Below are positions 1 to 54,493 of a stretch of DNA of 54,493 nt, piece by piece. Made by a program: the position numbers and the translations under genes. Source of the stretch: a virus. Each line of letters opens with the position of its first letter. Positions within the stretch are counted from its first letter, which is position 1. The notes beneath the pieces are model-generated. The model saw nothing but the letters and a program-made list of their open reading frames with translations, was not told where the DNA came from and did no database searches. The DNA lies in IMG/VR virus record IMGVR_UViG_3300048996_000054, positions 1 through 54,493 of that record; one strand, given 5' to 3'.

Positions 1-323
1 GACAACCCGTACCGTCGAATCGCATAGAGCGAAGCCAATCCCCAGAGCAGTGGGCCGGCCATGTAGATCACGAGCACGTCGATCACAGCTAGATCTGAAA
101 TGCCTCGGGACAAACCAACGACCAAGTAGACGGTGGAGATGAACAGAGCGACCGCATACCAGGCGGCAAATTGACTACGGACAAATCGTCGCCCAATGGC
201 GACAACTCCAATGAGGGCAGCGAATATCAGCGCGCCTGCCGCGAACTCCTTGAAGGCGTTCGGGATCACCACGCAGAGGATCAGCAGCGCGCCATAGATG
301 AGCGTGGTTGTCAGGTGCAGCAC
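1..323 (-). CDS. wzy: O-antigen polymerase (Wzy/WaaL-like), N-terminal part, runs off the left edge
   Basis: Minus-strand reading from a GTG at 323 gives 107 codons to the edge with no stop. The product is almost wholly hydrophobic, with about four membrane helices (for example LIYGALLILCVVIP, AAGALIFAALIGVVAIG and WYAVALFISTVYLVVG) and ends RRYGL, as in the first quarter of Wzy/WaaL proteins. An in-frame TGA at 351-353 bounds the frame upstream. No good Shine-Dalgarno precedes the GTG, but a perfect TATAAT lies at 334-339, so the mRNA may be nearly leaderless. The rest of the protein is probably the segment at 53583-54493, which lacks a start. In phages such genes change the linkage or length of host O antigen after lysogeny. 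Confidence 0.72.
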   Translation of the reverse strand, partial: MLHLTTTLIYGALLILCVVIPNAFKEFAAGALIFAALIGVVAIGRRFVRSQFAAWYAVALFISTVYLVVGLSRGISDLAVIDVLVIYMAGPLLWGLASLYAIRRYGL

Positions 324-360: not shown

Positions 361-660
361 TCAGATCAGGTACCAGGCGATCGCTATGGCCACTGCGGCG
401 GCTATCCAGCCCCACAGTGGAATCACTGTGCCGGCCTCATTCTGCGGGAGTACATAGCAGCCGTCGTTATTCGGCCAACGCCGTTTTATGCGGCCCAACT
501 CTTCCAGTTCCTGCACCTCGTGTTTCATCAACGGCTCGTAGCGGTCGTCAGGCAAGTCTGTCACGTAGAAGAGGCCGCTATGCTTGCCGTCTGCGGCGTA
601 AAGCTCGCGGAACGGCGACTCGGCCAACAGGTGCACAACGCGCTCTTGTTTCGGGCTCAT
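361..660 (-). CDS. Small membrane-anchored protein of unknown function
   Basis: A 99-aa protein with a charged N-terminal part (begins MSPKQERVVHLLAE) and one C-terminal membrane helix (IPLWGWIAAAVAIAIAWYLI), which suggests a tail-anchored cytoplasmic domain. It lies just upstream of wzy on the same strand, and its stop is about 40 nt before the wzy start, so the two are probably co-transcribed in part. I do not recognise the family. Confidence 0.65.
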   Translation of the reverse strand: MSPKQERVVHLLAESPFRELYAADGKHSGLFYVTDLPDDRYEPLMKHEVQELEELGRIKRRWPNNDGCYVLPQNEAGTVIPLWGWIAAAVAIAIAWYLI

Positions 661-1762: not shown

Positions 1763-2002
1763 TCAGGTGTGGGGGCGGGGCATCGCCACGTAAACGATGT
1801 CGCTCATGGACCGGGGCGGCTCTATTCCCCGCTCATGGCGCAGGCCGCTGTCGATGGCCTCCCGCAACGAGCGGACTAGGGCACCTGGGCGCAAGCCGAG
1901 CCCGGTGCGGCCGTGTTCGCTGCCATCGTGCAGGAGCAGCCCGCCCGGCTCGTTCGCCATGCGCTCCAGCCAGTCGATCCGTTCGGCGTCTGTGAACTGC
2001 AT
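1763..2002 (-). CDS. Small hypothetical phage protein (79 aa)
   Basis: Begins MQFTDAERIDWLERMANEPG, a pattern common to small phage proteins that start with a D-x-ERIDWLE helix. The start at 2002 has a very strong GGAGGTGAG ribosome site. It is the first gene of the leftward series and diverges from int, so its promoter must lie in 2003-2277. No function assigned. Confidence 0.65.
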   Translation of the reverse strand: MQFTDAERIDWLERMANEPGGLLLHDGSEHGRTGLGLRPGALVRSLREAIDSGLRHERGIEPPRSMSDIVYVAMPRPHT

Positions 2003-2277
2003 TTCTCACCTCCAAAATTTTCCGCCGAACGCTCGGCGCGGCCAATGGTAGAAAAGGTGGTACGGCTGACGTAACCTGCTGTCAGACAAGAAGTTGCCGC
2101 TCCCGCCCTCTCCGCCAGTAATTGTCCAAGAGCGTCCCGGTTTGTCCAAGTACATCCATCGGACAACCGGGACCGCCTCTCATAACCTTCGGTAATCGTC
2201 CTGTACAGTCCGTTCCTGTCCAGATCAAGCCAGCAGTCGCGCATGGTATCGGTCGTGGCACAGAGGCCGGAAATACC
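2003..2277. other. Intergenic region with candidate attP arm sites and divergent promoters
   Basis: This 275-bp gap separates divergently read genes (minus-strand gene at 2002, int at 2278). It holds the nonamer TTGTCCAAG twice in direct orientation (2122-2130 and 2142-2150, 20 bp apart) and an inverted GGACAA at 2161-2166. CCCGGTTTGTCC (2136-2147) forms an imperfect inverted repeat with GGACAACCGGG (2161-2171). P4-type integrases usually have their attachment site just upstream of int, so this is the best place for attP. The core cannot be fixed without a host junction. Confidence 0.45.
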
Positions 2278-3432
2278 ATGACCCTGACCGTCCGCGCGGT
2301 CGAAACCGCCAAGCCCAAGGACAAGCCCTACAAGCTCGCTGATGAGAAGGGGCTGTACCTTTATGTCTCCAAGGCAGGAGGCAAGAGCTGGCGCGCCAAC
2401 TTCCGGGAGGCAGGGAAGCAACAGACCCGGACCTATGGTCGCTATCCGTCCATGACCCTTGCCGACGCCCGCAAGGCTCACCAGGCGGCCAAGGAAGCGC
2501 CGGAAGCCGTGGCTGAACCCACAGGGCCCACCTTTGAGGCAGTCGCCAAGGAATGGCTGCTCACGCACCTGCCGGGTCTGTCCAACCCCAAGCACAAGAG
2601 CCAGGTTCAGGGGACGCTGGAAAACTACGCCTACAAGCAGCTCGGCCCCAGACCGATCAAGCAAATCGAGCGGGAGGAACTGGTCAAGGCGGTCAAGGCC
2701 ATCGGCGGCGGCAAGGTCGAAACCGCGCACCGGGTCGCCGGCCGAATCACAGCCGTCTTCAACTACGCGCAGGACGCTGGAATCCTGAAGATCCACCCGG
2801 CGCACAACCTCACCCGGGTACTGGAGGCACGCAAGGTCAAGAGGCCGATGGCGAGTGTCCAGCCGGAAGAGGCCGGCGAACTGCTGCGGGCGGTCCAAGG
2901 CTACACAGACACTGTGACTCGGCTCGGCCTGCTGCTGCTTGCTCACACCTTCGTCAGAGTGGGCGAGCTGCGACTGATGCGTTGGTCCGAACTGAAAGAG
3001 GGCGGGGCGGTCTGGGTCGTTCCAGAAGAACGCATGAAGCTCAGGCTCCCGCATGTCGTGCCGCTGTCCAAGCCCGCACAGACCATCCTGGCGACCCTGC
3101 GCGAGATGACGGACGCTGAGCTTGTGCTCGACTCCCCTGCCAACCCGGGACACCCGCTGTCCGAGAACACGCTGCTTTTCGCCCTGTACCGGTTGGGATA
3201 CAGAGGCAAGATGACAGCTCACGGATTCCGCGCGCTGGCGTCTACCGTTCTCAATGAGCAGTCCGGGTTCCCGCATGATGTGATCGAGCGTCAGCTAGCC
3301 CACAAGGAAACGGACGCAGTGCGGGCGGCATACAACCGCGCCGAGTACCTGCCGCAGCGCCGGGAACTCATGGCGTGGTGGTCGACATGGCTTGAAGGTG
3401 CCGCTGCAGGTCAGAAACCCGCCAGCGAGTAG
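2278..3432 (+). CDS. int: Tyrosine integrase, P4/DUF4102 type
   Basis: 384 aa from ATG 2278 (MTLTVRAVETAKPKDKPYKL); the frame is open further upstream, but the first 52 codons look non-coding. The N-terminal DUF4102-type arm-binding domain (KLADEKGLYLYV, RTYGRYPSMTLADAR) is followed by a SAM-like core-binding domain and the catalytic domain. Visible catalytic features are the first arginine in RVGELRLMRW (about residue 227), HGFR (about 315) and the tyrosine in AAYNRAEYL (about 352). It would integrate and, with the excisionase, excise the genome. P4-type enzymes often target tRNA or tmRNA 3' ends. The 3' end overlaps the convergent xis gene by 65 bp. Confidence 0.93.
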   Translation: MTLTVRAVETAKPKDKPYKLADEKGLYLYVSKAGGKSWRANFREAGKQQTRTYGRYPSMTLADARKAHQAAKEAPEAVAEPTGPTFEAVAKEWLLTHLPGLSNPKHKSQVQGTLENYAYKQLGPRPIKQIEREELVKAVKAIGGGKVETAHRVAGRITAVFNYAQDAGILKIHPAHNLTRVLEARKVKRPMASVQPEEAGELLRAVQGYTDTVTRLGLLLLAHTFVRVGELRLMRWSELKEGGAVWVVPEERMKLRLPHVVPLSKPAQTILATLREMTDAELVLDSPANPGHPLSENTLLFALYRLGYRGKMTAHGFRALASTVLNEQSGFPHDVIERQLAHKETDAVRAAYNRAEYLPQRRELMAWWSTWLEGAAAGQKPASE

Positions 3433-4851: not shown

Positions 4852-6277
4852 CGAATTCGGGGAGTGCATCGAATTCCTCCTTGCTCAGATAAACGTCCTC
4901 GGTGCGGTAGTCGTCGGGCCGCTCCGAATCGACCATGGCGGCAACGTCACCAGGAGGGACGACGCAGGTAGTGCCGTCATGGCTCACGCGCACGTAGCGC
5001 ACGCGAGGGCGTCCGAAGGCGTCGAACATCACGCCGCGCGGCGGGCACTTGATCGTCGGGTTCTCCCTCTCATTCGACGGGGAGGGGGAGGCGGCACCGG
5101 GAGGTGCAGGAAGCGGCATCCAGTGGGATGGCGTCCAGCTTGCCCCGAACAACTTCCAGCCTTCGTGGTGGTAGTGCTGTCCCATCTTGATCCGCCAGTC
5201 GCCGGGGCGGTCAAACTCGCACGCGACCAAAACGAACTCGCTGCGGTCACGCGCTGGCAAAGTGGGCGGCAGGCGGTCACTGCAGTTAATCCAATTCCCC
5301 ATTGCGCTGGATGCGGGCCACGGATCAACGAGCCCGACGATTCCCCGCATTGCGGTTGCTGCATCAATGCAACCGGGAGGCAGATAGCTATTCACGATCT
5401 CCAGCACGGCGAGCAAGCGCTCCTCGAACACGGGTTCGCTGGAGGCGGCAGACTCCCCTGTCTTTCCTGCATCGGTGAGCGGGCGATTCTTGGCTACAAC
5501 GGCGTCGACCTGTTCATCGGTCATGCCATGACAAGTGCACAGCTCAACAGCTTTGCCCTTGCGCCAGCACGCGCCGCCGGGCTTGTTGGTGTAGCGACAC
5601 GCACGCACTGCTCCAGCGCGGTTTTCTTCGCTGCCCTGTGCCTGGGGTGGGGTGGGGTGGATGCCAGTGGCGAGCAGGTTTTTGACGATTGCTGCCGCAG
5701 CAGGGATGTCGCTGTCTTCCAGTGCATCCAGCACCGCCTGCAAAGCACCGTAGCGCGCCATACCGGGGAGGTCTGCCACGATGCGCCGTTCAGGCTGTGC
5801 TGGGGTGGGTGCGCCCTGAGTGGCGGCGGCAGCAACCAAATCCGCTGCAGCGTGGCGGGCGTCACGGTGGCCCCGGCAGTAGTGGGTGTAGGCGTCGGTT
5901 CCGTCGTAAGGCTTGCACGGCAGGTTCATGATCTGCTGGCGCAATTCGTCCACGCTGGGTGCGGGCTGAGTGGCGGTGGCAAATAGCGGGACAGGGCTGC
6001 CGTTCGGTGGCAGTAGTGCGAAAGGAATGGCGTCGTAACTGTGGAACAGCGATCCGCAGCAAAGCCATGCCGCGGGCTCGCTCAGTTCTGCGCTTCCCTG
6101 ATCGGGGGTGGCGCGGCGATTCCATGCGGCAATGGCTTCGGCTTTCGTCTGACCTGCGGTAAACGGCTGGGCTTCGCACCCAGGGTTGTTGCAGTGGACG
6201 GAACGCTCGTTGAGTACCTCCGGCTCTCCGCCACAAAACGGGCAGGGATCGGGGGTGGCGCGGGGGGATTCGGTCAT
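4841..6277 (-). CDS. Lar-like zinc-finger protein fused to a DUF551-type module (478 aa)
   Basis: Begins at ATG 6277 (MTESPRATPDPCPFCGGEPE). Residues about 12-55 show the Lar restriction-alleviation signature: CPFCGG, HCNNPGC and AIAAWNRR. Near residues 310-375 the WINCSDRLPP ... WMPLPAPP pattern is that of DUF551. Between them are at least two Cys-rich stretches (CKPYDGTDAYTHYCRG; a CRYTN..CWRKG..CTCH cluster) that may be further zinc sites. Lar-family proteins blunt type I restriction in Rac-type prophages; whether this mosaic does so is inferred from the N-terminus only. It is much longer than Lar itself. Confidence 0.75.
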   Translation of the reverse strand: MTESPRATPDPCPFCGGEPEVLNERSVHCNNPGCEAQPFTAGQTKAEAIAAWNRRATPDQGSAELSEPAAWLCCGSLFHSYDAIPFALLPPNGSPVPLFATATQPAPSVDELRQQIMNLPCKPYDGTDAYTHYCRGHRDARHAAADLVAAAATQGAPTPAQPERRIVADLPGMARYGALQAVLDALEDSDIPAAAAIVKNLLATGIHPTPPQAQGSEENRAGAVRACRYTNKPGGACWRKGKAVELCTCHGMTDEQVDAVVAKNRPLTDAGKTGESAASSEPVFEERLLAVLEIVNSYLPPGCIDAATAMRGIVGLVDPWPASSAMGNWINCSDRLPPTLPARDRSEFVLVACEFDRPGDWRIKMGQHYHHEGWKLFGASWTPSHWMPLPAPPGAASPSPSNERENPTIKCPPRGVMFDAFGRPRVRYVRVSHDGTTCVVPPGDVAAMVDSERPDDYRTEDVYLSKEEFDALPEFDGF

Positions 6278-7251
6278 GATGTTGCTCCAGGAAATCCGTC
6301 GTGCGTGACCCCATCGAGCAGGCGGCCGGCGACCTTCTTGCCGACGCGGCCGATGCACTGCTGGTCATCGATCACGCCGTCCAGGGAGTCCAAGTAACCG
6401 GGTCTGCCAACGTCGCGCCATTCGCCGTCGACGTGTTCGAGCGTCCGAAAGCGCGTTTGCTCCGGTGGATCGTCCACGTCAGAGTCGCTGAATTGCGACC
6501 AAGGGAGCCACTCGCCCCACTGCTTGAACAGGAACGGCACGCTGGCGGCGGCGCATTGATCGCGCAGGCTGCGGGCCCAGTCCGGGTGCATCGGCCTGGC
6601 GCCGGGACCGCTCTCTCCGCCGACGATGACCCAGTGAAGTTTCTTGACCAGCGGCCTTTCACCGAAGAGCGGGCCGCCCCCCATCGGGAGACGTATGTAC
6701 CGAGTGATCAAATCCACCGGTCCCAGCAGCGGCTCCATGCTCAGGAACCGCACGCGCGCCGGCGTCGCCAGCAGCTTCGGGATGTCGCGGTCGGCCTCTT
6801 CCTGGTTGACCACGGTGGCGCCCAGCCAGACGTTTGACGGGAGAGGCTTGTGCATGCAGCCGATGGCACCCATCGCCACCTGCGACATGGACCGCGCGTT
6901 GCCGATCCGCTTCGTCAACAGCAGCCAGTCGAGCTGCGGCGTCGCCTCGATGAGGCGGAACAGGTCCACACGCCACTCGGGCGGTACCTGGTTGTCGAAC
7001 ACATCGGCCAGCGAGGCGCAGAAGACCCGGAATCGTCGGCCTTCGCGCTCGGCCTGCGCGTTCCACTTCAGCGGCAGGCGCCAGTTCGCATCGGTGGTGC
7101 GCCGGCGCGGCGAGTCACCCCACTGCACCGTGCCGGATCGCTTCGCCCAGCCCTCGGCGTAGCAGTGGTCGCAGCCCGGGGACACCTTCGTGCAGCCGGT
7201 CCATGGGTTGAACGTGTGGTCCGTCCATTCAATCTTGCTGTTCTCAGCCAT
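6274..7251 (-). CDS. Phage Gp37/Gp68 family protein (DUF5131)
   Basis: 325 aa beginning MAENSKIEWTDHTFNPWTGC. The WTDHTFNPWTGCTKVSPGCDHCYAE block is the family hallmark and places three cysteines as C-X6-C-X2-C, similar to iron-sulfur or radical-SAM-like proteins. Later signatures include FCASLADVFD, LLTKR, LSMEPLLGP, VIVGGESGPGARPMHP and FKQWGEW. The family is common in actinophages and proteobacterial prophages; its substrate is unknown. The stop overlaps the next start by ATGA. Confidence 0.88.
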   Translation of the reverse strand: MAENSKIEWTDHTFNPWTGCTKVSPGCDHCYAEGWAKRSGTVQWGDSPRRRTTDANWRLPLKWNAQAEREGRRFRVFCASLADVFDNQVPPEWRVDLFRLIEATPQLDWLLLTKRIGNARSMSQVAMGAIGCMHKPLPSNVWLGATVVNQEEADRDIPKLLATPARVRFLSMEPLLGPVDLITRYIRLPMGGGPLFGERPLVKKLHWVIVGGESGPGARPMHPDWARSLRDQCAAASVPFLFKQWGEWLPWSQFSDSDVDDPPEQTRFRTLEHVDGEWRDVGRPGYLDSLDGVIDDQQCIGRVGKKVAGRLLDGVTHDGFPGATS

Positions 7252-7628: not shown

Positions 7629-9560
7629 TTAGGCGGCTTTCGCCAGTTGGTCGCACACCACGGCCAAGTGGCTGATGGCGGCATGGAGAATTCGCGGCAG
7701 GTCGCCGTGGTGGTACAACTTGGCGGCGCCCTCGCGGCCGGCCGGCGGGAAGCCGAGGGTTTCCAGGCCGGCGGCGTCGATCTGGAACGGGGCGATATGG
7801 GCCTTGATCTGGCCGAGGGTCATAGTCGGAGGTCCGGCAGGCGCGGCCGGCGCCCGGGTGGGCATGGGGATGACGGCGGGGCCGGCGGCGGGCTTTGCGG
7901 CCTCCGCGGCATGGTGGACCGCCAGGTCGGCGATGATCCCGCTGGCGGCCTGCTCCATCGCGTCTAGCAGCTGCGGCGGCAGGTCGTCGGCCTCACGGGC
8001 GCCGCTGATCGCTTCCATGGCAGCGGAGCCGGCGGCATTCGCCTCGGCGCGGCGGCGCTGGATCTCCGCCTGGCGCTCCTGTTCGACCTGTGCCGCCGCC
8101 TGTTGACGCTGCGCCTGCTGGGCGGCCTCCCGCTGCCGGCGCTCCTCGGCTTCCCGCGCCTCCTGCTCGCGCTGCAGCTTGGCCTGCTCCTCGGCCCGGA
8201 TGCGGGCGCGCTCGCGTTCCGCCAGTTCGGCGGCCCGGCGTTCTTCGGCGGCGCGGTGCTCCGCGATCCGACCCTTTACCAGCTCGCGGACGTCGTCGGC
8301 CGGCTTGCTGATGAAGGCGAGCCGGTCGGCGAATAGGTGCTCATAGCCCTTGGCCTCGTCATCCAGGGCGGCCAGCGCCGCACGGATCTTGCGGGCGGAC
8401 TCGTCGGCCGCGATCTTGGCGTTGGCCAGCACCGTGTCCAGCGCGTCCTGCATGCTGGCGAAGCTGCGCTTGCTCTTGATGGCGCCGGCCCAGTCGGGGG
8501 TAGGGAGAACGATCCAAGGCCCGCCGGTGGCGACCTTGGACGCCTCGATGTGTTGCTCGTAGGCGCTGCGCGCCGCGGAGATCATGGCCGCCTTCTTGGC
8601 CTTGTCCTCGCGCTCGACGTCCTGCTCGAGTTTCAGGGCCGTCAGGCGCATGTCCTCGCACCAGGCGTCGATCATCCGGGCGGCCTCACCGACGGTGACG
8701 GTCTGCGCCAGCATGGCGTCTTTGGCCAGCCGGGCCTGCTGGATGTTGTCGCGCAGCAGCTTGGCCGACTCCTTGGCGTTGCTGAAGTCCTGGTCGGTCA
8801 CCAGCGCGATGGCTCGGACCTCCGCCAGCCTCTTCGCCAGCGCCTGGCCGTACTCCTGCATGTTGCTGGTGGTGATCTCGCCCTTGGCGTGGATCACCAG
8901 CGCCGGCAGCGCGAGCGTCACTTCGGCGGCGGGCCGCTCCTTGATGTCGGCCGGCGTGTAGACGGCGAGGTCGGCATCGAACTGGTCCCAGCCGGCGACG
9001 ACGCGCTCCATCCAGAGCAGGGCCTCCTCGCGGGTCACCTTGGCCCAGACCATGCGCTCCGGCGTGCCGTCGGAGACGACGAAGTACAGTTCTTCGGCGC
9101 CGGTGACCAGCAGGACCTGGGTGCACTGCGGCATGTGCTCGTCGGGCACCAAGCCGGCCGCCACCATTGCCGCGAGGTCCTCGGCCCACTGCTTGTGCTC
9201 GATGGCGATCCGGTCGTCCATGGTCAGGCCGTCGCAGCTGGCGGACAGATGGCCGCGCGACATGGTCACTGGGTAGAGGTCCTCGCCGATCAGCTTCTCG
9301 AGCAGCGGCCGGGCCTTGGCCTCAACCTCGTGGCCCTTGTCCAGCACGTTGCGCTGCAGCCATTCGCTGAATTCGCGCGCCAGGCCGGTGTGCTTCATGT
9401 GCAGCAGCTCGGTGCGCTTCATCTTTTTCGACAGGCCGAGGGCGGCTGCCGCCTCGCTGGCGCCGCGGTGCTGCAGCCGGAACTGGTGCCAGGCATCGGT
9501 GCCCTGAGCCAACTGGTGGGTGACCTTCGGCAGGGCGAGGATTTCGTCGAGGCGGCTCAC
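7629..9560 (-). CDS. YqaJ/lambda-exonuclease-type recombination nuclease with long coiled-coil extension
   Basis: 643 aa. Residues about 20-200 form a PD-(D/E)XK exonuclease of the YqaJ family: GASEAAAALGLS, GHEVE (about 76-80), D110 in SASCDGLTMDD and the E-H-K motif at 121-123 (IAIEHKQ). This would resect double-strand ends for the adjacent RecT annealase. Residues about 440-530 are a highly charged E/R/Q/A coiled coil, and the C-terminus is proline-rich, then globular (TLGQIKAHIAPFQIDAAGL). Typical YqaJ exonucleases are 200-350 aa, so the extension is unusual. Start overlaps the recT stop by ATGA. Confidence 0.88.
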   Translation of the reverse strand: MSRLDEILALPKVTHQLAQGTDAWHQFRLQHRGASEAAAALGLSKKMKRTELLHMKHTGLAREFSEWLQRNVLDKGHEVEAKARPLLEKLIGEDLYPVTMSRGHLSASCDGLTMDDRIAIEHKQWAEDLAAMVAAGLVPDEHMPQCTQVLLVTGAEELYFVVSDGTPERMVWAKVTREEALLWMERVVAGWDQFDADLAVYTPADIKERPAAEVTLALPALVIHAKGEITTSNMQEYGQALAKRLAEVRAIALVTDQDFSNAKESAKLLRDNIQQARLAKDAMLAQTVTVGEAARMIDAWCEDMRLTALKLEQDVEREDKAKKAAMISAARSAYEQHIEASKVATGGPWIVLPTPDWAGAIKSKRSFASMQDALDTVLANAKIAADESARKIRAALAALDDEAKGYEHLFADRLAFISKPADDVRELVKGRIAEHRAAEERRAAELAERERARIRAEEQAKLQREQEAREAEERRQREAAQQAQRQQAAAQVEQERQAEIQRRRAEANAAGSAAMEAISGAREADDLPPQLLDAMEQAASGIIADLAVHHAAEAAKPAAGPAVIPMPTRAPAAPAGPPTMTLGQIKAHIAPFQIDAAGLETLGFPPAGREGAAKLYHHGDLPRILHAAISHLAVVCDQLAKAA

Positions 9561-10537
9561 GATGCAGCCCCTTGGCCGGAGGTACCCTTGATGGCCCAGC
9601 TCGCGATCTCCACCTTCTGCTCCTGCGTCAGCGTGTTCTTCGTCTCCGCCGTGGCGATAACGTCGTTCACGGTCTTGCCCCCGGCGATGGCCTTTTTCCA
9701 GCCTTCAGCCTTGTTGGCGAAGTCCTCGTCGGACAGTGCCGGAAGCCCGACCGCGCCCGCGCCGGTGGAGTCGTCGTCATTGCCAGCGCCGTCGTCGCTG
9801 GCGGACGGGTCCGGGGTCGCCACCCAGGTCTCGGCGTCGATCACCACGTTCTGGCCACGCTCCGCCGCGTTGGCTACGTCCATGGCGGCCGTGAGTTCGA
9901 TCGACTGGGGCATGTACTTCAGCACCTGGAGCAGCGGCACCTTGCGTGCGTACATTTCCCAGTTGTCGTAGCTGTAGTGACGCTTGCCGACCTTGTTGAA
10001 CTTGTCGCGGTGGTTGGCGATCTTGCGAATCGGCCAGACCTCGATCACCGGAACATCGTTTCCCTTGATGCGGCCGATCGCATACACGTGCGTCAGGTTC
10101 GCCGGGTTGTCGTCGCCGTTATCACCCGGCTTGTGCGTGACGAAGGGGCGATCGCCCAGCGCGTAGTCGAAGTCATCACCTTTGTAGACGGCGCCCGTCC
10201 AGACCGTGCAGCGGCCGGAGCGGTTGGCGAGATCCACAAGGCCTTTCCAACCGGGGACGAAGGTGCAGGTGCCCTTGTACGTGATCAGGTAGCCCTGGCC
10301 GTTGACGTTGGGCTCCAGCCCCAGCTGGCAGGCCGTGAGGATGGACGCGGCGATGCTGCGTTGGGAGCAGTTGCCCAGTTCGGGGTTGCTACTGAACACC
10401 GTCAGCGCCAAGCGCGTGATGCGGCCCGGCTTCATGAAGGTGGGGAGGGCCAGCGCCATCTGCGGCTCCAGCTTCTTCAACCAGCTGCCGAACTGGGTCG
10501 GGCTGTCGAAGTGCGCTACTTGTCGGTCGTTGCTCAT
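9557..10537 (-). CDS. recT: RecT-family single-strand annealing protein
   Basis: 326 aa with the RecT core: CSQRSIAASILTACQLGLEP, VNGQGYLITYKG, FVPGWKGLVDLANRSGRC, and a downstream KFNKVGKRHYSYDNWEMYARK, VPLLQVLKYMPQS. The C-terminal third contains an acidic linker (DDGAGNDDDSTG). RecT anneals complementary single strands produced by the neighbouring exonuclease and supports phage recombination and circularisation. Both are expected from the leftward early promoter. Confidence 0.93.
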   Translation of the reverse strand: MSNDRQVAHFDSPTQFGSWLKKLEPQMALALPTFMKPGRITRLALTVFSSNPELGNCSQRSIAASILTACQLGLEPNVNGQGYLITYKGTCTFVPGWKGLVDLANRSGRCTVWTGAVYKGDDFDYALGDRPFVTHKPGDNGDDNPANLTHVYAIGRIKGNDVPVIEVWPIRKIANHRDKFNKVGKRHYSYDNWEMYARKVPLLQVLKYMPQSIELTAAMDVANAAERGQNVVIDAETWVATPDPSASDDGAGNDDDSTGAGAVGLPALSDEDFANKAEGWKKAIAGGKTVNDVIATAETKNTLTQEQKVEIASWAIKGTSGQGAAS

Positions 10538-24129: not shown

Positions 24130-24651
24130 ATGGACATTCGCAAATCCCTTCACGGCCGAGACCTGGGCATCGGCCCGACCGGCGAACTGGTCATCAACAA
24201 GGACACGGGCGAGCAGTCCGTCCTTGGCTTGTCGGCCAACAAGATCATCACCAGCGCGCAGGTGCTGGCGCTGTTCACCACGGCCATCGCGGTGATCCCG
24301 ACGCCCGGTGCTGGCCTCATCGCTGTGCCGCGGCTGGCGCAGGTCTACAAGCCCGCGGGCACCGCCTACGCCGTCGGTGCTGGCTCCGACCTGGTGCTGA
24401 AGTACACCAATGCGGCCGGCGCGCAGTGCTCCTCGGTCATCGAGACGGTGGGATTCCTGGACCAGGCCACTGCGCAGAACCGCTTTGTCGGCATGCCCGG
24501 TGCCACCGGCGCGACCGCGGCGGACGTGAACGGCGTGGCTGACGCTGCGGTGGTGTTGCACTGCCTGAGTGCCAACCCCACGACCGGTACCTCGCTGCTG
24601 TCCGTGCGGGTCTGGTACGACATCATCACCAGCACGCTGCCGATCGTCTGA
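24130..24651 (+). CDS. Hypothetical, probably virion-associated protein (173 aa)
   Basis: MDIRKSLHGRDLGIGPTGEL with repeated Ala/Gly/Thr-rich beta stretches; ends VWYDIITSTLPIV. Similar in style to the preceding protein, suggesting both are surface or minor structural proteins placed unusually between the two terminase genes. The stop overlaps the terL start (TGATG). A GGAG lies before the ATG. Confidence 0.6.
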   Translation: MDIRKSLHGRDLGIGPTGELVINKDTGEQSVLGLSANKIITSAQVLALFTTAIAVIPTPGAGLIAVPRLAQVYKPAGTAYAVGAGSDLVLKYTNAAGAQCSSVIETVGFLDQATAQNRFVGMPGATGATAADVNGVADAAVVLHCLSANPTTGTSLLSVRVWYDIITSTLPIV

Positions 24652-26207
24652 TGTCGCAGCTGGCCGAGATCCTTTCCGCGCTGTCCGCCCTCCCGGAGAA
24701 AGACCGGGAGGCGGTGGTGCGCGAAGCGATGGAGGCCACGAAGGACCTCAAGTGGGTGCCGAACCCCGGCCCGCAGACCGAGTGCTACTACTGCGAGGCC
24801 GAGGAAATCCTGTTCGGTGGCGAGCCGGGCGGCGGCAAGAGCCAGGTGGGCATCGGCCTGTCCCTGAACGAGCACGAGCGCTCGCTGCTGCTGCGCCGCA
24901 CGAACAAGGAAGCCGGCAAGTTCGTGGGAGAGGTCGAGCTGGTGCTCGGCACCCGCGACGGCTACAACGGCCAGAAGGACTGGTGGAAGCTGCCAGGCAA
25001 GCACCTGGACTTCGGCGGCGTGCAGCACGAGGACGACAAGCAGAAGTACAAGGGCGACCCGCACGACCTGATCTTCTTCGACGAGCTGACCGACTTCACC
25101 GAGTCGCAGTACATGTTTATCCGGCAGTGGAACCGCTCCACGACGCCGGGTCAGCGCTGCCGCACGGTGGGAAGCTCCAACGGTCCGACCAGCACCAATG
25201 GCCTGTGGGTGATCACCCGCTGGGCCGCCTGGCTGGACCCCAAGCACCCGAACCCGGCCAAGTCCGGCGAGATCCGCTGGTACCTGGTGGGCGACGACGG
25301 CAAGGAGATCGAGGTCGACGGGCCCGGCCCATACCCGGTACTGGGCCGGCAGGTGAAAGCGTCCTCGCGCACCTTCATCCGGTCCAAGCTGGAAGACAAC
25401 CCAGACCTGGCCGCCACCGACTACGGCTCGCGGCTGATGAACCAGTCGGAGAAGAACCGCAAGGCGTACGCGCTGGGCGACTTCGGCTCGATGCTGGAGG
25501 ACCACCCCTACCAAGCCATCCCGACCGAATGGGTGGTGCAGGCGCAGGAGCGCTGGACCAAGCTGCCGCCCTTCGGCGTGCCGATGTGCTCGCTGGGTGT
25601 CGACGTCGCGCAGGGCGGCAATGACGAGAGTGTGGTTGTCGAGCGCCACGATGCGTGGTTCTCCGAGCCCTTCAAGAAGCCCGGCAAGGAAACGCCCGAC
25701 GGCCCCTCCATCGCCGGCATGGTGACCTCGCGCCGCCGCGACGGTGCAAAACCCATCGTCGACGTCGGCGGCGGTTGGGGCGCGGAAGCCTACGGGCACC
25801 TGATCGGCAACGGCATCGAGGCCGAGGCGTACATGGGCATCAAGGCCACCCGCCTGCGCACCCTGGACAACTTGCACCCCTTCGTGAACGTGCGCAGCGC
25901 GGCCATCTGGAAGATGCGCGAGCTGCTCGACCCGAGCCAAGCCGGCGGCAGCCCTTGCGCCTTGCCTCCGAGCCGGATGCTGCTGGCGGACCTGACCGCT
26001 CCCATCTTCGAGATCACGCCCCGCGGCATTGCGGTGGAGTCCAAGGAAGACGTCTGCGCGCGGCTGGGCCGAAGCACCGACGAGGGCGACGCCACCGTGA
26101 TGGCGAACTGGGGTGGCGCGCGCATGGCCAGCCACTACCAGCAATGGAAAAAGCAAATGGCGCCCCCGCGCGTCGTCTTGAGCCGCCCGTCGGCACGGAG
26201 GAAGTAA
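24651..26207 (+). CDS. terL: Terminase large subunit (518 aa)
   Basis: Walker A GEPGGGKS at about 57-64, Walker B LIFFDE with D144-E145, and a C-terminal RNase H-like nuclease beginning LGVDVAQGG (catalytic D318), with further acidic residues near IVDVGGGWG. It is the packaging motor and cuts concatemers. Length and motif spacing are normal for a podovirus TerL. TGATG and TAATG junctions couple it to its neighbours. Confidence 0.95.
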   Translation: MSQLAEILSALSALPEKDREAVVREAMEATKDLKWVPNPGPQTECYYCEAEEILFGGEPGGGKSQVGIGLSLNEHERSLLLRRTNKEAGKFVGEVELVLGTRDGYNGQKDWWKLPGKHLDFGGVQHEDDKQKYKGDPHDLIFFDELTDFTESQYMFIRQWNRSTTPGQRCRTVGSSNGPTSTNGLWVITRWAAWLDPKHPNPAKSGEIRWYLVGDDGKEIEVDGPGPYPVLGRQVKASSRTFIRSKLEDNPDLAATDYGSRLMNQSEKNRKAYALGDFGSMLEDHPYQAIPTEWVVQAQERWTKLPPFGVPMCSLGVDVAQGGNDESVVVERHDAWFSEPFKKPGKETPDGPSIAGMVTSRRRDGAKPIVDVGGGWGAEAYGHLIGNGIEAEAYMGIKATRLRTLDNLHPFVNVRSAAIWKMRELLDPSQAGGSPCALPPSRMLLADLTAPIFEITPRGIAVESKEDVCARLGRSTDEGDATVMANWGGARMASHYQQWKKQMAPPRVVLSRPSARRK

Positions 26208-26610: not shown

Positions 26611-28260
26611 ATGAGCGACGTCAAAAAGCTGGTCGACCGCGCGAATGCCCTGCTTGGCAAGAGGTTCGACCTCCTGCAGCTGTGGCAGACCATCGCGGAT
26701 AACTTCTACGTCGAGCGCGCCACCTTCACGGTCACGCGCGAGATGGGTGCGGAGTTCGCCGACCACCTGATGACGTCCTACCCGCTCATGGTCCGCCGTG
26801 ACTTGGGCAACCAGTTCTCCGGCATGCTGCGGCCGACTTCGAAGGACTGGTTCAAGATGTCCACCGAGCGGGCGCAGACGGACCTGCAGGCCCGCGCCTG
26901 GCTGGAGTACGCGACCGGCGTGCAGAAGCGCGCCATGTACGACCGGAAGGCCCGGTTCGTGCGCGCCACCAAGGAAGGTGACCACGACTTCGCCGCCTTT
27001 GGGCAGTGCGTGATCAGCGTGGAGAAGTACCAGCCGCCAGACATCGGCCGCCAAGCCTTTCCGCCCCACCTGCTGTATCGCTGCTGGCACCTGCGCGATT
27101 GTGCCTGGGCCGAGGACGTGACTGGTGAGGTGAACACCTTCGTGCGCAAGTGGAAGCCGTCGCTGATGGTGCTGAATCAGAAGTTCCCCGGCAAGCTGAG
27201 CCCCAAGCGGATGCAGCAGCTGGAGAAGGACCCGCTGATGGAGGTGGAATGCCTGCACATTGTGGTGCCGGCCGACACCTACGACTGCATGGACGGCAAG
27301 AAGTACCGCACCCGGTACGTGAGCGTCTACGTCGACATCGACGAGCAGACGGCCCTGGAAGAAGTCGGCCAGCGCTCCATGATGTACGTGGTACCGCGGT
27401 GGCAGACGGTGAGCGACAGCCAATACGCCTACAGCCCGGCCACTGTCTGCGCGCTGCCCGACGCCCGGCTGCTGCAGGCCATGACGCTGACCCTACTGGA
27501 GGCCGGCGAGAAGGCGGTGAACCCGCCGATGGTCGGCGTGCAGACCGCGCTGCGCTCGGACCTGAACCTCTTCGCCGGTGGCTTCACCGCGGTGGACGCG
27601 GCGTACGACGAGCGGCTGGGCGAGGTGCTGAGGCCCCTGACCAGCGACAAGTCGGGGCTTCCCTACGGCATCGAGGTCCGTGACGACATCAAAGCGAGCC
27701 TGATGGACGCCTTCTTCCTGAACAAGCTGAATCTGCCGCCGGTCGACACGGCCAAGATGACGGCCTACGAGGTGAGCCAGCGCGTCTCGGAGTACATCCG
27801 CCAGGCGCTGCCGCTGTTCGAACCGCTCGAGTCCGACTACAACGGGGCCCTCTGCGAGCGCACCTTCGACATCCTGATGCAGGACGGCGCCTTCGGGCCG
27901 GTCGACACCATCCCGGAAGCGCTGAGCGAGGAGGAGGTCACCTTCCGCTTCGAGTCCCCGCTGCAAGAAGCTGTGGAGCGCCAGAAAGCCACCATCTTCA
28001 TGGAAGGCCAGGGCCTGGTGGCGCAGGCGGTGCAGGTCGACCAGACCGCCGTCTCCGTGATCAACGCGCCCAAGGCTCTGCGCGAGGCACTGCTCGGTAT
28101 CGGCATGTCGCCGGCCAACATCCGCAGCGAGGAAGAGATCGACGAGATCGTGGCCGCAGAGGAGCAGAAGGCACAAGCCGCCCAGCTGCTGCAAGGCATG
28201 CAGGCCGCCGCCGACGTGGCGAAGACGGCCGGTGAAGCAGCGGGGGCCTTCCAGGTATGA
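26611..28260 (+). CDS. Portal (head-tail connector) protein (549 aa)
   Basis: Typical Head-tail_con portal of short-tailed phages: LLQLWQTIADNFYVERATFT, DHLMTSYPLMVRRDLGNQFS, WLEYATGVQKRAMYDRKARF, FAAFGQCVISVEKY and the C-terminal VSQRVSEYIRQALPLFEPLE. The C-terminal 60 residues are helical and Ala/Gln-rich. It forms the twelve-subunit DNA portal at one capsid vertex. Length is in the normal range. Confidence 0.93.
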   Translation: MSDVKKLVDRANALLGKRFDLLQLWQTIADNFYVERATFTVTREMGAEFADHLMTSYPLMVRRDLGNQFSGMLRPTSKDWFKMSTERAQTDLQARAWLEYATGVQKRAMYDRKARFVRATKEGDHDFAAFGQCVISVEKYQPPDIGRQAFPPHLLYRCWHLRDCAWAEDVTGEVNTFVRKWKPSLMVLNQKFPGKLSPKRMQQLEKDPLMEVECLHIVVPADTYDCMDGKKYRTRYVSVYVDIDEQTALEEVGQRSMMYVVPRWQTVSDSQYAYSPATVCALPDARLLQAMTLTLLEAGEKAVNPPMVGVQTALRSDLNLFAGGFTAVDAAYDERLGEVLRPLTSDKSGLPYGIEVRDDIKASLMDAFFLNKLNLPPVDTAKMTAYEVSQRVSEYIRQALPLFEPLESDYNGALCERTFDILMQDGAFGPVDTIPEALSEEEVTFRFESPLQEAVERQKATIFMEGQGLVAQAVQVDQTAVSVINAPKALREALLGIGMSPANIRSEEEIDEIVAAEEQKAQAAQLLQGMQAAADVAKTAGEAAGAFQV

Positions 28261-28581: not shown

Positions 28582-29604
28582 ATGTTCAAGCGCAATCCAC
28601 TGCTGATGGTCGACGATCCTGGTGCTGCTGGTGGCGGTGCTGCTGCCGCCGCTGGAGGGGCTGGCGCTGGCGCCGGCGCTGGTGGTCAAACGGGTGCTTC
28701 CGCTGGTGCTGCGGACGCCGGGGCCAAGGCTGGCGCGGCTTCCGGCGCCGCCGATGCTGGTGGGCAAGGCGCTGCTGCCGCCGGCGCCGAGGGTGGTGCA
28801 GGTGCTGCCGCCAAGGAACCGCCGAAAGCCGACTGGGCCGAGGACTGGCGCACCAAGCTGGCCGGCGAGAAGCCCGACAAGCAGCTCGAGCGCATGGCCT
28901 CTCCCAAGGACGTCTACAACTCATGGAAGGCGCTGCAGTCCAAGCTGTCCAGCGGCGAACTCAAGTCGACCCTGCCCAAGGACGCCAAGCCAGAGGACGT
29001 GGCCAAGTGGCGCACCGAGAACGGCATCCCGGAGAAGCACACCGACTACAAGATGCCCGATGGCGTGGTGGTGGGGGACGCCGACAAGCCGCTGATCGAC
29101 CTGTTCCTGCAGGACATGCACGGCAAGAACGCCTCGCCGGAGATGGTGCAGACCGCGGTGGCCAGCTACTACAAGATCCAGGAGCAGCAGGCCGCCGCCA
29201 TCGCCGAGGCCGACGTCTCGCACAAAGACGAGATGGAGAACACGCTGCGCGCCGAGTGGGGCGCGGAGTACCGCGGCAACGTCAACGCCATCACCTCCAT
29301 GCTGTCGACGGCGCCAGGCGGCATCAAGGACAAGATCCTCAGCGCCCGCATGGCCGACGGCCGGGCGATCATGAACGACCCGGACGTCCTGCGCTGGTTC
29401 GCCACCACCTCGCGCGAGCTCAACCCGGTGGCGACCGTCGTCCCTTCCGGCGGCGACCAGATGGGCGCCATCACCGACGAACTTGCCGGCATCGAGAAGC
29501 TTATGGGCAACCGCTCCAGTGAGTACTGGAAGGGCCCGAAGGCCGACGCGATGCAGGCCCGATACCGCACCCTGGTCGCCGCGCGCGACCGGAAGACCAA
29601 ATGA
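28582..29604 (+). CDS. Probable scaffolding protein with Gly/Ala-rich N-terminus (340 aa)
   Basis: Residues about 13-78 are nearly only Gly and Ala with some Thr, Asp and Glu, encoded by GGTGCTGCTGG-like repeats (about 28618-28815). The rest is helical and charged: DWRTKLAGEKPDKQLERMAS (read with the preceding WAE), KDVYNSWKALQSKLSSGELK, HTDYKMPDGVVVGD. Position between portal and capsid and this composition fit a scaffold. It would be lost from mature heads. Confidence 0.7.
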   Translation: MFKRNPLLMVDDPGAAGGGAAAAAGGAGAGAGAGGQTGASAGAADAGAKAGAASGAADAGGQGAAAAGAEGGAGAAAKEPPKADWAEDWRTKLAGEKPDKQLERMASPKDVYNSWKALQSKLSSGELKSTLPKDAKPEDVAKWRTENGIPEKHTDYKMPDGVVVGDADKPLIDLFLQDMHGKNASPEMVQTAVASYYKIQEQQAAAIAEADVSHKDEMENTLRAEWGAEYRGNVNAITSMLSTAPGGIKDKILSARMADGRAIMNDPDVLRWFATTSRELNPVATVVPSGGDQMGAITDELAGIEKLMGNRSSEYWKGPKADAMQARYRTLVAARDRKTK

Positions 29605-49555: not shown

Positions 49556-51694
49556 ATGCCTGCAACCGCTACTGACCGGCTCTACGGGTTAACCACTAGT
49601 ACAGCAATAAAACCCCCATGCTTGGTCGCCACCACCGCCAACATCGCTTTGACCGGTCTCCAGACCATCGACGGCGTGGTGCTGGCGGCCAACGACCGGG
49701 TGCTGGTGAAGAACCAGACCAACACCACAACGAACGGCATCTACGAGGCCAACACCTCCGGGTGGAGCCGCGCGCCTGACTTCGATGGGGTGCGCGACGC
49801 GGTGAGCGGCACGCTGGTGATCGTGCGTAACGGCACTGACAACGGTAACACCGTCTGGGAACTGACCACGGCCAACCCGGTGGCGATCGGCACGGACGCG
49901 CTCACCTTCACCAAGGCGCTGCTGGACGACACGGCCACTGCTGTCTTCATCCAAAACGGGACCGGCGCAGTCGAACAAACCGCTCAGGACAAGCTGCGCG
50001 ACTGGGGCACGGCGGAGGGGTACGGCGCACTGGGCGACGGCGCGACCGACGACACTGCCGCCATCATCAAGTGCCTTAACGCCAAGGGCGCCTGCTACCT
50101 GATCCCCGGCAAGACCTACGTTTGCGACAACGTAATCCTTCCCGCCGGGGCCTGCATCTTCAGCGTGGGACGAGCCGCCACCCTCAAGCAGAAGTTCGCG
50201 GTCGCCAGCACTGGCATGCTGTACGCAAACAGCGGCTCGGCCAGCGCCACGCTCGACAACATCAGCATCTTCGGCGTCACGCTGGAGGGTCAGGTTGCGA
50301 CTCAGGGATTCGCCGAGTTCGTGCACCTGATTTCGGTCAACGGCGTGCGCAACTTCAGGCTCGATGACTGCCTGCTCAAGGGGTTCCGTGGCGACGCGCT
50401 CTACCTGGGCTCTGGCATCGTCGCGGGAGATGAGCGGCACAACTACAACGTGCGCGTCACGCGCACCGACTTCGATGGCGTGAACAACGACAACCGCAAC
50501 GCGGTTAGCGTGATTGACGTTGACGGTCTGACCATCAAAGGCTGTGGTTTCAAGAACTGCACGCGCCCGAACATGCCGGGCCCCATTGACCTGGAACCGG
50601 ACGCCCTGCCGTTCCATGTGATCCGAAACGTCCGCATCGCCAACAACACAGGTGACAACATCGGCGGCAACGTGGGATTCGTTTCAGTGCTGGTGCCGGC
50701 GGCAGTCACTGCCGCTCCAAGGAACATCCGTGTTCTCAACAACACGCTCACCAATTACGTCGGCACCGGCGCATTCTTCACCTTCACCGCGAACCGCGCC
50801 CCCACGGCAACCAGCGAAAACAACGATGTTCAGGTGATCGGAAACCACGGCAAGACGGGCGGCCTGCCTCTGCAGATCTTTGACGGCAAGGGCATCGTCA
50901 CCCGAGACAACACATGGGAAGATTTCACCGCTTCGACCTTGATCGGCTACACGGGAGCGGCGCAGAAGGTCCTCGACCTGGAGGTGGACGACACCTACAT
51001 TCGCTGCGGCTCCAATAGTGGCAGCGGAGTGGTGGTGTATCAACTGGATCACGCCAAGATCAAAGGCAAGTTGGTCGATTGCGGAAAAGGAGTGGCAGGC
51101 AGCGCCAATGGCATCGACTTCAACACCGGAACCTCGTCGTACATCGACATTGAGGAGTTGGAGATTTCCTCGCCGACTGGCAAGACGCTGGTGGGCATCC
51201 AGAAAGAGGCCGGGCACACGTTCGCAGCTTCCACCAACAGGTATGTAAACAACAACCTGAATGGTCTCAGCAACGCTTTCCAGGCCGACTACTCCGACGA
51301 GCTGGAAACTGCGTGGCTACCTATCGTCACGGGGTCATCTTCGGCCGGCGCAGGTGTCTACACCGCCGGCCAGTACGGCCGGCTTCGGCGCATGGGCAAG
51401 AAAGCGAGCATTCGGGGCAAGGTGCAGGTGAGTGCCGGCCATACCGGCACCGGCATGATCCAAATTCCGCTCCCAATTGCCGCCAAGGCAGCCAGCAACA
51501 ACGAGGAGACGCCTGTTTCCCTGCTGGTCACTGGAGTGGCGACGACCGGCGGCCATGTAGGTCTCATCAACCCTGCGGTCGGGTCGACAGGGGCAATCCG
51601 CTGCTACTACACAGGCACTGGGACCATGGGGCAGACAGCGATCCCTGCCGGCGCGTTCACCGTCTACTTCAGTGCCGAGTACGAGACCGCCTAA
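49556..51694 (+). CDS. Tailspike with right-handed beta-helix (712 aa)
   Basis: The N-terminal head-binding region (TTANIALTGLQTIDGVVLAA, NDRVLVKNQT) is typical of podovirus spikes. GYGALGDGATDDTAAI at about residue 155 opens a pectate-lyase-like beta-helix; N-rich turns (RVTRTDFDGVNNDNRNAVSV; RIANNTGDNIGGNVG) follow. The C-terminus (KASIRGKVQVSAGHTGTGMI) is a small beta trimer. It probably binds and may cleave O antigen or capsule, which would make wzy-driven O-antigen change a means of excluding further phages. Confidence 0.88.
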   Translation: MPATATDRLYGLTTSTAIKPPCLVATTANIALTGLQTIDGVVLAANDRVLVKNQTNTTTNGIYEANTSGWSRAPDFDGVRDAVSGTLVIVRNGTDNGNTVWELTTANPVAIGTDALTFTKALLDDTATAVFIQNGTGAVEQTAQDKLRDWGTAEGYGALGDGATDDTAAIIKCLNAKGACYLIPGKTYVCDNVILPAGACIFSVGRAATLKQKFAVASTGMLYANSGSASATLDNISIFGVTLEGQVATQGFAEFVHLISVNGVRNFRLDDCLLKGFRGDALYLGSGIVAGDERHNYNVRVTRTDFDGVNNDNRNAVSVIDVDGLTIKGCGFKNCTRPNMPGPIDLEPDALPFHVIRNVRIANNTGDNIGGNVGFVSVLVPAAVTAAPRNIRVLNNTLTNYVGTGAFFTFTANRAPTATSENNDVQVIGNHGKTGGLPLQIFDGKGIVTRDNTWEDFTASTLIGYTGAAQKVLDLEVDDTYIRCGSNSGSGVVVYQLDHAKIKGKLVDCGKGVAGSANGIDFNTGTSSYIDIEELEISSPTGKTLVGIQKEAGHTFAASTNRYVNNNLNGLSNAFQADYSDELETAWLPIVTGSSSAGAGVYTAGQYGRLRRMGKKASIRGKVQVSAGHTGTGMIQIPLPIAAKAASNNEETPVSLLVTGVATTGGHVGLINPAVGSTGAIRCYYTGTGTMGQTAIPAGAFTVYFSAEYETA

Positions 51695-52520: not shown

Positions 52521-52961
52521 GTGGAGCTCCTCGACCTGGTGCTGGCGCTATGCCGCGCATTCGAGGGCTTCTACAGCCACCCGTACCTGTGCCCGGCCGG
52601 CGTTCCCACGATCGGCTACGGCGCGACCTTCTACGAGGACGGCCGCGCCGTCACGCTCAAGGATCAGCCGATCGATAAGGTTCGGGCCGAGCAGCTCCTG
52701 CGCTGGCACGTGCAGCAGCGGTTCCTGCCGGCCGCGCGCCGGCTGTGCCCTGGTGCGGACACCCCGGGCCGCCTGGCCGGCCTCATTGACTTCGCTTTCA
52801 ATCTGGGCGAGGGCAATCTGCGCGCCAGCACGCTGCGGCGCAAGGTGAACGCGGCCGAGTGGGAAGAGGTTCCCGCCCAGCACCTGCGCTGGAACCGCGC
52901 TGGCGGCCGGGTGCTCCGCGGCCTGACCCGCCGCTGTCAAGCACGCGCAGACCTGGTGTAG
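52521..52961 (+). CDS. Endolysin, GH24 lysozyme (146 aa)
   Basis: CRAFEGFYSHPYLCPAGVPT followed by IGYG gives the E15-(8 aa)-C24-(5 aa)-T30 triad; the usual Asp is replaced by Cys, a known variant in phage endolysins. LAGLIDFAFNLGEGNLRAST and LRRKVNAAEW are further GH24 features. There is no signal peptide or SAR helix, so export depends on the holin. Starts one nt after the holin stop. Confidence 0.92.
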   Translation: MELLDLVLALCRAFEGFYSHPYLCPAGVPTIGYGATFYEDGRAVTLKDQPIDKVRAEQLLRWHVQQRFLPAARRLCPGADTPGRLAGLIDFAFNLGEGNLRASTLRRKVNAAEWEEVPAQHLRWNRAGGRVLRGLTRRCQARADLV

Positions 52962-53151: not shown

Positions 53152-53475
53152 ATGCGTGCTGCCATCATCGCCATCGTCTTTGCCGTTTCAGCACTCGTGA
53201 GCTGGGCCGCGCGAGCCGACCTGATGGTCAAGAGCCAGGAGTCGGGCATCGAGCTGCGCCTGCTGGACGCACCGTGCACCCATGCCCAGACGCTGGCCGG
53301 CATCAAGGAAGAATGGCGCCCCAAGTTCCGCAACGCGCGCATCATGGACGGCAGAGGAACGATCCTGCACTACGGCTGCTGGGTGGAGCACGACGCGGAG
53401 ATCGCCTTCATCATGTTCGATGACGGCAGCAGCACCGGCATGAGCTTGGCGAGCTTCCGCGACTCGTCGATCTAA
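53152..53475 (+). CDS. Secreted periplasmic protein (107 aa)
   Basis: ATG 53152 behind AAGGAG. MRAAIIAIVFAVSALVSWAA with a likely cleavage after ARA gives a mature 84-aa domain with two Cys (DAPCTHAQTL, HYGCWVEHD) that could form a disulfide. Similar small secreted proteins end lysis modules of some phages. It is the last rightward gene before the wzy terminator. Function unknown. Confidence 0.65.
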   Translation: MRAAIIAIVFAVSALVSWAARADLMVKSQESGIELRLLDAPCTHAQTLAGIKEEWRPKFRNARIMDGRGTILHYGCWVEHDAEIAFIMFDDGSSTGMSLASFRDSSI

Positions 53476-53582: not shown

Positions 53583-54493
53583 TCACGTCGCCAATCTGCG
53601 GTTTGACCAAACCGCGTGCGTAGCAGCCGCGGTATTGCGTCTCGCCTCATCCAAAAAGTACACCACGGGAAGTACATACATCCACTGGAACACGATCGCC
53701 TCTATGTACGGGTTCGTGTTGCTGGCGAAGAAGGCGCAGACAAACCCGCCGTACATGAACCGCTCATGGATCGACAACTGCCCGCGCAGGAGCGGGCGCC
53801 ACCCACGATACAGGGCGAGGACGAACGGGATCGCATAAATGATGGCGCCGATGACGCCGACGCGAAAGACGCTCGCAATCCAAACCATCTCGTAGCGCCA
53901 TGGGGTGAGTTCGTTCACGTAATACCGAACCCCCATTCCGTGCCCTGCGCCCGTGGCCATCGTCTCGCTGACACCCTCAAGCAATGCCATGAACTGAGTC
54001 GACCGCTCCTCGCCGCCGCCGGTACTCAGCTTCTCCAACGTGTTTTCGAGCGGGAGCATGATGTCTATCCCGTACATCTCATTGAGCGCCCAGCCTACTA
54101 GAGATACCACGAGAACGACACCGATACCGCGGACAAACAGTCGACCGACCGCCCTGCCGGCCTGCTTACTTGTGATTCCGTGCAGCGCCCCCAGGAGCGC
54201 GCCGATTGGCACAGCCAGCATGAGGCCGCTGCGCGCAGATGTTAGTGCTACGGCAACGCAGCACCCGATCAGGACCCATCGGACGATTGCGTTCGGGATC
54301 ACCTGCGGAGCAGCAACTAGCCCGCCGAGGATGAAGATGAGCGAGCCGTACACGTACATGCGCGCCCCAACATAACCGTACTCGATGTGGACGTTCGGGT
54401 CGTCAATCATGAACTTGACGGCTTCCTGTCCCCATCGTTCATAGGCCCAGAAATAGAACGCCACCCCAAGGCAGCCCAGCGCGGCACCAACGC
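53583..54493 (-). CDS. wzy: O-antigen polymerase (Wzy/WaaL-like), middle and C-terminal part, enters from the right edge
   Basis: Open from the edge (in frame from 54491) to a TGA at 53583, 302 codons. Around six or more membrane helices, for example MYVYGSLIFILGGLVAAPQ, GIGVVLVVSLVGWALNEMYG and VGVIGAIIYAIPFVLALY. ALTSARSGLML is the conserved Wzy/WaaL segment (LTxSRxg), and the large periplasmic loop between about residues 145 and 210 contains LSTGGGEERSTQFM. It lacks the first three to four helices, which are found at 1-323 on the same strand. Joined, they make about 410 aa, a normal length. Confidence 0.78.
   Translation of the reverse strand, partial: VGAALGCLGVAFYFWAYERWGQEAVKFMIDDPNVHIEYGYVGARMYVYGSLIFILGGLVAAPQVIPNAIVRWVLIGCCVAVALTSARSGLMLAVPIGALLGALHGITSKQAGRAVGRLFVRGIGVVLVVSLVGWALNEMYGIDIMLPLENTLEKLSTGGGEERSTQFMALLEGVSETMATGAGHGMGVRYYVNELTPWRYEMVWIASVFRVGVIGAIIYAIPFVLALYRGWRPLLRGQLSIHERFMYGGFVCAFFASNTNPYIEAIVFQWMYVLPVVYFLDEARRNTAAATHAVWSNRRLAT

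Follow-up and report, generated by a model that had tools for sequence, protein, structure and literature searches.

Conversion genes in described temperate phages

Pseudomonas aeruginosa phage D3 is a temperate phage with a multi-helix O-antigen polymerase, Wzy-beta (PMC4815439; PMC9658991), which is encoded together with the inhibitor Iap, and a host infected by D3 acquires resistance against other phages (PMC4815439). In the Variovorax phage VarioGold, which integrates at tRNA-Ser, the plus-strand lysozyme and spanin genes are followed by the minus-strand O-antigen ligase-family gene VG_p25, by small minus-strand genes and by a plus-strand tyrosine recombinase gene (PMC9658991).

The DNA analysed here, referred to as the window, is the whole of IMG/VR record IMGVR_UViG_3300048996_000054 (54,493 bases), for which a temperate phage with a multi-helix polymerase is likewise predicted. 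The record would share with D3 an effect on the host surface polymer and on superinfection (PMC4815439; PMC9658991). However, D3 has Iap and Oac (serotype conversion), neither of which was recognisable in the examined parts of the record, and the structural genes of the record belong to a different phage group. Its local gene order and tRNA-Ser integration are those of VarioGold (PMC9658991), a likeness that concerns gene order and annotation rather than protein alignment; moreover, VarioGold is an isolated and fully described phage, whereas the record is a contig. We consider it very probable that this contig covers nearly the whole genome of a podovirus-like temperate phage (approximately 54.5 kb) as a circular map, opened within a wzy-type gene with the loss of some 20 bases. 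By analogy, this gene would serve in conversion of the host.

A wzy-type gene is divided over both contig ends

Because the window comprises the entire record, its edges are the ends of the contig. Each of them carries part of a wzy-type gene:

1-323, minus strand: 5′ part of the gene, with a GTG start at 323, residues 1-107 and about four transmembrane helices, truncated by the contig end
53583-54493, minus strand: 3′ part of the gene, comprising the last 302 residues, with the stop at 53583

Read along the minus strand, the left frame consists of 107 codons plus two bases and exits at base 1, while the right frame is entered at 54491 and runs for 302 codons, with two bases preceding it. The two pieces add up to 1234 nt (323 + 911), which equals 1 mod 3, so that a direct join of the edges is out of frame and any gap between them must be 2 mod 3. 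A simple hydropathy scan yielded four to five peaks in the left piece and about six to seven in the right one, and the summed length of approximately 417 residues (107 + ~8 + 302) fits the size of a polytopic Wzy protein (approximately 400-450 aa with at least 10 helices). The right piece further displays SARSG, EERSTQ, GHGMGV, PWRYE and NPYxExxxFQWM blocks that are conserved with its homologues.

The ends of the record do not overlap exactly over any length from 6 to 200 nt, and no identical end repeats close the circle; nor was significant similarity between the left and right ends found among the matches listed.

Homologues join the two pieces and size the gap

A tblastn search of plasmid records with the right piece retrieved two near full-length homologues, WP_180829941.1 (Sulfitobacter pontiacus plasmid; 435 aa; 33% identity to the right piece) and WP_265561555.1 (Qipengyuania spongiae plasmid; 439 aa; 36% identity), to which the left piece is 27-33% identical. 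The left piece matches residues 39-118 of WP_180829941.1 (E 4e-8) and 24-106 of WP_265561555.1 (E 2e-7), and the right piece matches residues 142-430 (E 1e-51) and 136-408 (E 7e-57), respectively. When the left piece was shuffled 300 times for each homologue, no shuffled version scored as high as the actual piece (at most 73 against 105; z ~10), which together with the ordered matches indicates that the edge arrangement did not arise by chance.

Between residue 94 of the left piece and residue 3 of the right piece the homologues count 23 residues (a spacing extrapolated without gaps) and the window 15, leaving 8 residues missing with respect to each homologue, and a MAFFT alignment with the pieces as separate rows again left 8 residues missing. 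Eight codons minus the four bases present correspond to 20 nt, in agreement with the frame rule (2 mod 3), although this estimate presumes that the loop has no indel and might shift by a few codons either way. When more distant homologues were aligned in a second round, the piece ends fell elsewhere, and this alignment was left out of the gap estimate.

These comparisons support that both edge pieces belong to one wzy gene, from which approximately 8 residues (~20 bases) appear to be absent. The sequence-only reading had already proposed a minus-strand wzy gene split over both edges, with its start and first four helices at the left edge, and this is borne out by the 107-aa GTG-initiated frame with its approximately four hydrophobic helices and by the same two full-length homologues being matched in order. 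Its further proposal that the parts complement each other without duplication, but join directly only out of frame (requiring 2, 5, 8... further bases), likewise holds, as the homologue matches do not overlap, fall 8 residues short and lead to a gap of ~20 nt.

The split gene resembles probable bacterial Wzy polymerases

Both full-length homologues reside in bacterial polysaccharide clusters, unlike the phage-borne wzy gene of the window. The Sulfitobacter homologue is neighboured by a flippase, glycosyltransferases and rfbABCD (dTDP-rhamnose genes), and the Qipengyuania homologue by an autokinase and glycosyltransferases; flippase, glycosyltransferase and dTDP-rhamnose neighbours provide the context expected of a Wzy polymerase. 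Six more distant homologues in bacterial genomes have S-R, GxGxG, PWxYE and NPY blocks in common. Among 385 genomes sampled from the class to which one Acetobacteraceae genome belongs there was no match, which is no demonstration of absence, and matches were present in 6 of the 369 genomes sampled from a second class.

The right piece scored above the cut-off of no Pfam or NCBIfam model, the best being PF13425 (O-antigen_lig; E 0.09). The Sulfitobacter homologue also remained below the cut-off of Wzy_C (PF04932; E 7e-4), a model matched by 2 of 11 aligned members (best E 2.6e-7). Wzy proteins differ widely in sequence (PMC12502699), and such weak domain-model support would for that reason be usual among them. 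No credible match to a solved structure was obtained by sequence, and a fold predicted for the right piece from its single sequence had too low a confidence (mean pLDDT 46) to be used. On sequence grounds, the gene probably encodes a Wzy-type polysaccharide polymerase. The G+C content of its pieces (58% and 60%) lies below that of the early and late blocks (65-66%), suggesting separate acquisition.

The wzy gene is situated between the lysis genes and attP, on the strand opposite to that of the late genes. Beyond its start, the following genes lead up to attP:

361-660, minus strand: 99-aa protein with one C-terminal hydrophobic segment and no Pfam match, directly upstream of wzy and co-directional with it; a candidate partner gene
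687-905, 921-1145, 1159-1359 and 1763-2002, minus strand: small genes between wzy and attP (codon-based gene call)

Another small protein of 107 aa, with an apparent signal peptide and no Pfam match, is encoded between the lysis genes and wzy (53152-53475, plus strand).

Pattern scans of IMG/VR, using either the right piece alone or a three-sequence alignment, revealed no phage relative of wzy, and tblastn of the right piece against phage records yielded nothing up to an E value of 1. When 20 relatives of the phage were searched as records, the only wzy match was a weak one within an unrelated 2,544-aa frame, and none of these searches found a junction-located wzy gene in relative phages. A distant homologue, QLG13513.1 (27% identity over 141 aa), is carried by 'plasmid p_5' of Deinococcus sp. 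D7000, a phage-like circular element on which it has large structural-type genes as neighbours and a glycoside hydrolase family 19 gene nearby; this host is very distant, and the left piece has no significant match there. The element (CP058539.1, 1-44524; QLG13513.1 at 5691-7019) has the appearance of a phage or phage-plasmid, given that terL and genes for a minor capsid protein, an HK97 gp10 family protein, a GH19 protein and a recombinase are among its contents.

Circular relatives are unbroken where the window breaks

The layout of the genome outside the wzy region is marked by the following features:

7629-10537, minus strand: RecE-like exonuclease and RecT annealing protein of the early block (phrog_7655, phrog_148, PF03837)
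24651-26207, plus strand: terminase large subunit (phrog_979), distant from both contig ends and conserved in 12 of 12 relatives
26611-28260, plus strand: head-to-tail connector or portal (PF12236, E 9.5e-60), the query for relatives
49556-51694, plus strand: tail fibre/tailspike-like protein (phrog_11518; weak PF12708, pectate-lyase-type signal)
52521-52961, plus strand: phage lysozyme of the lysis block (PF00959, E 3.5e-29), the last recognisable late function before wzy

A portal-based search of IMG/VR revealed a family of environmental phages, the best shown being 65% identical (IMGVR_UViG_3300015050_000873, referred to as G001). Of the 12 relatives compared, 6 (unique lengths 49.9 to 54.4 kb) have ends that overlap exactly by 123 or 127 nt, and we read these overlaps as assembler k-mer overlaps of circular contigs. 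The distance from the terminase gene to the contig end varies among the six circles, which were thus opened at different places, and in all six the plus-strand tailspike and lysis genes lead into the minus-strand early genes, unbroken where the window breaks. The window, unlike these circular relatives, has no end overlap, meaning that no read or k-mer seen here closes its circle.

G001 (circular, 54,270 bp unique) has the same late and early modules as the window, and its unbroken order of tailspike, lysis genes, minus-strand small genes, recombinase-like gene and early genes equals the order obtained by joining the right edge of the window to its left edge. It differs in having no wzy gene at the junction, where a different minus-strand recombinase-like gene is found instead. 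In another relative (G010) a different gene is split over the contig ends in the same circular sense.

An intact attP lies beside the integrase

The integration functions are found near the left end of the window:

2101-2117, plus strand: attP core TCCCGCCCTCTCCGCCA, a single exact copy identical to the 3′ end of tRNA-Ser(GGA)
2278-3432, plus strand: tyrosine integrase with arm-DNA-binding, central and catalytic domains (PF13356, PF22022 and PF00589)

The attP core and the integrase start are 161 bp apart. The integrase scored below the cut-off of NF007246, and integrases 66-71% identical to it are present in IMG/VR. The 17-mer TCCCGCCCTCTCCGCCA occurred in 19 of 100 genomes from the order of a related MAG, and each of the 12 genomic loci examined proved to be a tRNA-Ser(GGA) 3′ end; the reversed 17-mer, used as a control, was found in no genome among the matches listed. 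The tyrosine integrase and an attP equal to a tRNA 3′ end argue for a temperate phage of the tRNA-Ser integrating type.

The integrated state is represented by IMGVR_UViG_3300048924_000390, in which a 69% identical integrase starts 160 bp after a complete tRNA-Ser(TGA). The att sequence of that record (tRNA at 705-792) matches the one given for a Variovorax prophage (PMC9658991), which hints that the host range of such integrases lies in the Burkholderiales. The window itself contains neither host sequence nor an attL with a complete tRNA. Because no complete tRNA adjoins the integrase, the site is an attP with phage DNA on both sides, and the window is not a single integrated prophage.

Alternative explanations for the divided gene

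The two edge pieces might alternatively stem from two different wzy-type genes, for instance in host DNA flanking a phage insertion, as Wzy genes do exist in bacterial clusters and the gap is closed by no read. A phage inserted in a host wzy gene would, however, leave the pieces in the opposite order, as the sequence-only reading had correctly reasoned. Moreover, set against two homologues, the pieces add up to one protein but for 8 residues, and the att site on the integrase side is an attP without the body of a host tRNA, which makes the left end a phage arm rather than host DNA. An origin from two genes is therefore extremely improbable. It is only slightly less improbable that the ends are the physical ends of virion DNA, at a cos site whose single-stranded overhangs were lost in library making. 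The loss of ~20 bases at the junction would have the size of a trimmed overhang, but cos sites usually adjoin terminase genes and the terminase large subunit gene is ~24 kb away, while the relatives are opened at several different places and G001 lacks a wzy gene altogether.

Were the record one unit of a tandem prophage, or of concatemeric DNA in replication, and not a free circle, it would hold an internal att site as well and give the identical continuous sequence, so that a tandem-prophage unit and a free circle cannot be told apart from sequence alone. Since host sequence and an attL with a complete tRNA are absent from the window, and contigs with circular overlaps are common among the relatives, we regard such a unit as unlikely. 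The exact gap size apart, the circular map and its opening within wzy are demonstrated at the level of the sequence, and the earlier view of the window as a nearly complete circular map opened inside wzy gains support from the homologues, the circular relatives and the intact attP alike.

As to the cause of the break, a hairpin found no support, since neither end folds unusually, and neither did an end repeat, since the matches listed include none of significance between the left 1 kb and other parts of the window. Either a gap in coverage or a population mixed for wzy alleles might account for it.

Predicted role in the lysogen

In our reading, the assembler opened the circle inside the phage-borne Wzy-type polymerase gene and dropped ~20 bases. 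Integrase-mediated recombination would take place between attP (2101-2117) and the 3′ end of a host tRNA-Ser(GGA) gene and, given the att geometry, wzy and the small minus-strand genes should come to lie at the prophage end away from the integrase, adjoining host DNA. Because wzy is opposed to the late genes, its expression in the lysogen could be independent of theirs. By analogy with D3 and with the homologue clusters, Wzy would join lipid-linked sugar repeats in the inner membrane into a host surface polymer, and an altered linkage or length of this polymer might change the receptor for phages that need it. In line with this analogy, wzy can be regarded as a putative lysogenic-conversion gene.

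More speculatively, wzy and the 99-aa gene (361-660) might constitute a two-part conversion module in a lineage unrelated to D3, in which the small membrane protein silences the host polymerase and the phage polymerase builds a different polymer no longer recognised by the phage's own tailspike, an idea that we deem unlikely.

Since the record can serve as a genome that is almost complete, the order of genes, the genome size and the site of integration are established for this environmental phage group. A further gain is a phage-borne polymerase whose sequence family had no match in the searched phage collection. The position of wzy is already known for lysogenic-conversion genes, and the result concerns data completeness in an ordinary temperate phage type rather than a new kind of system. 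Asking whether both ends of a contig carry two parts of one gene offers a simple check of near-completeness.

Additional observations

The early block also encodes a DUF5131 protein (6274-7251, minus strand; PF07505, E 1.4e-93), a relative of which is found in the early block of another circular phage (G011). A tRNA with an undefined anticodon, reported by ARAGORN at 28724-28817 (plus strand), lies within a conserved structural ORF (28582-29604) and probably represents a false call. Finally, in the 66.7 kb relative IMGVR_UViG_3300031237_000002, adjacent late genes match near 10-11 kb and at 65-66 kb, towards both contig ends, which may reflect redundancy or a chimera.
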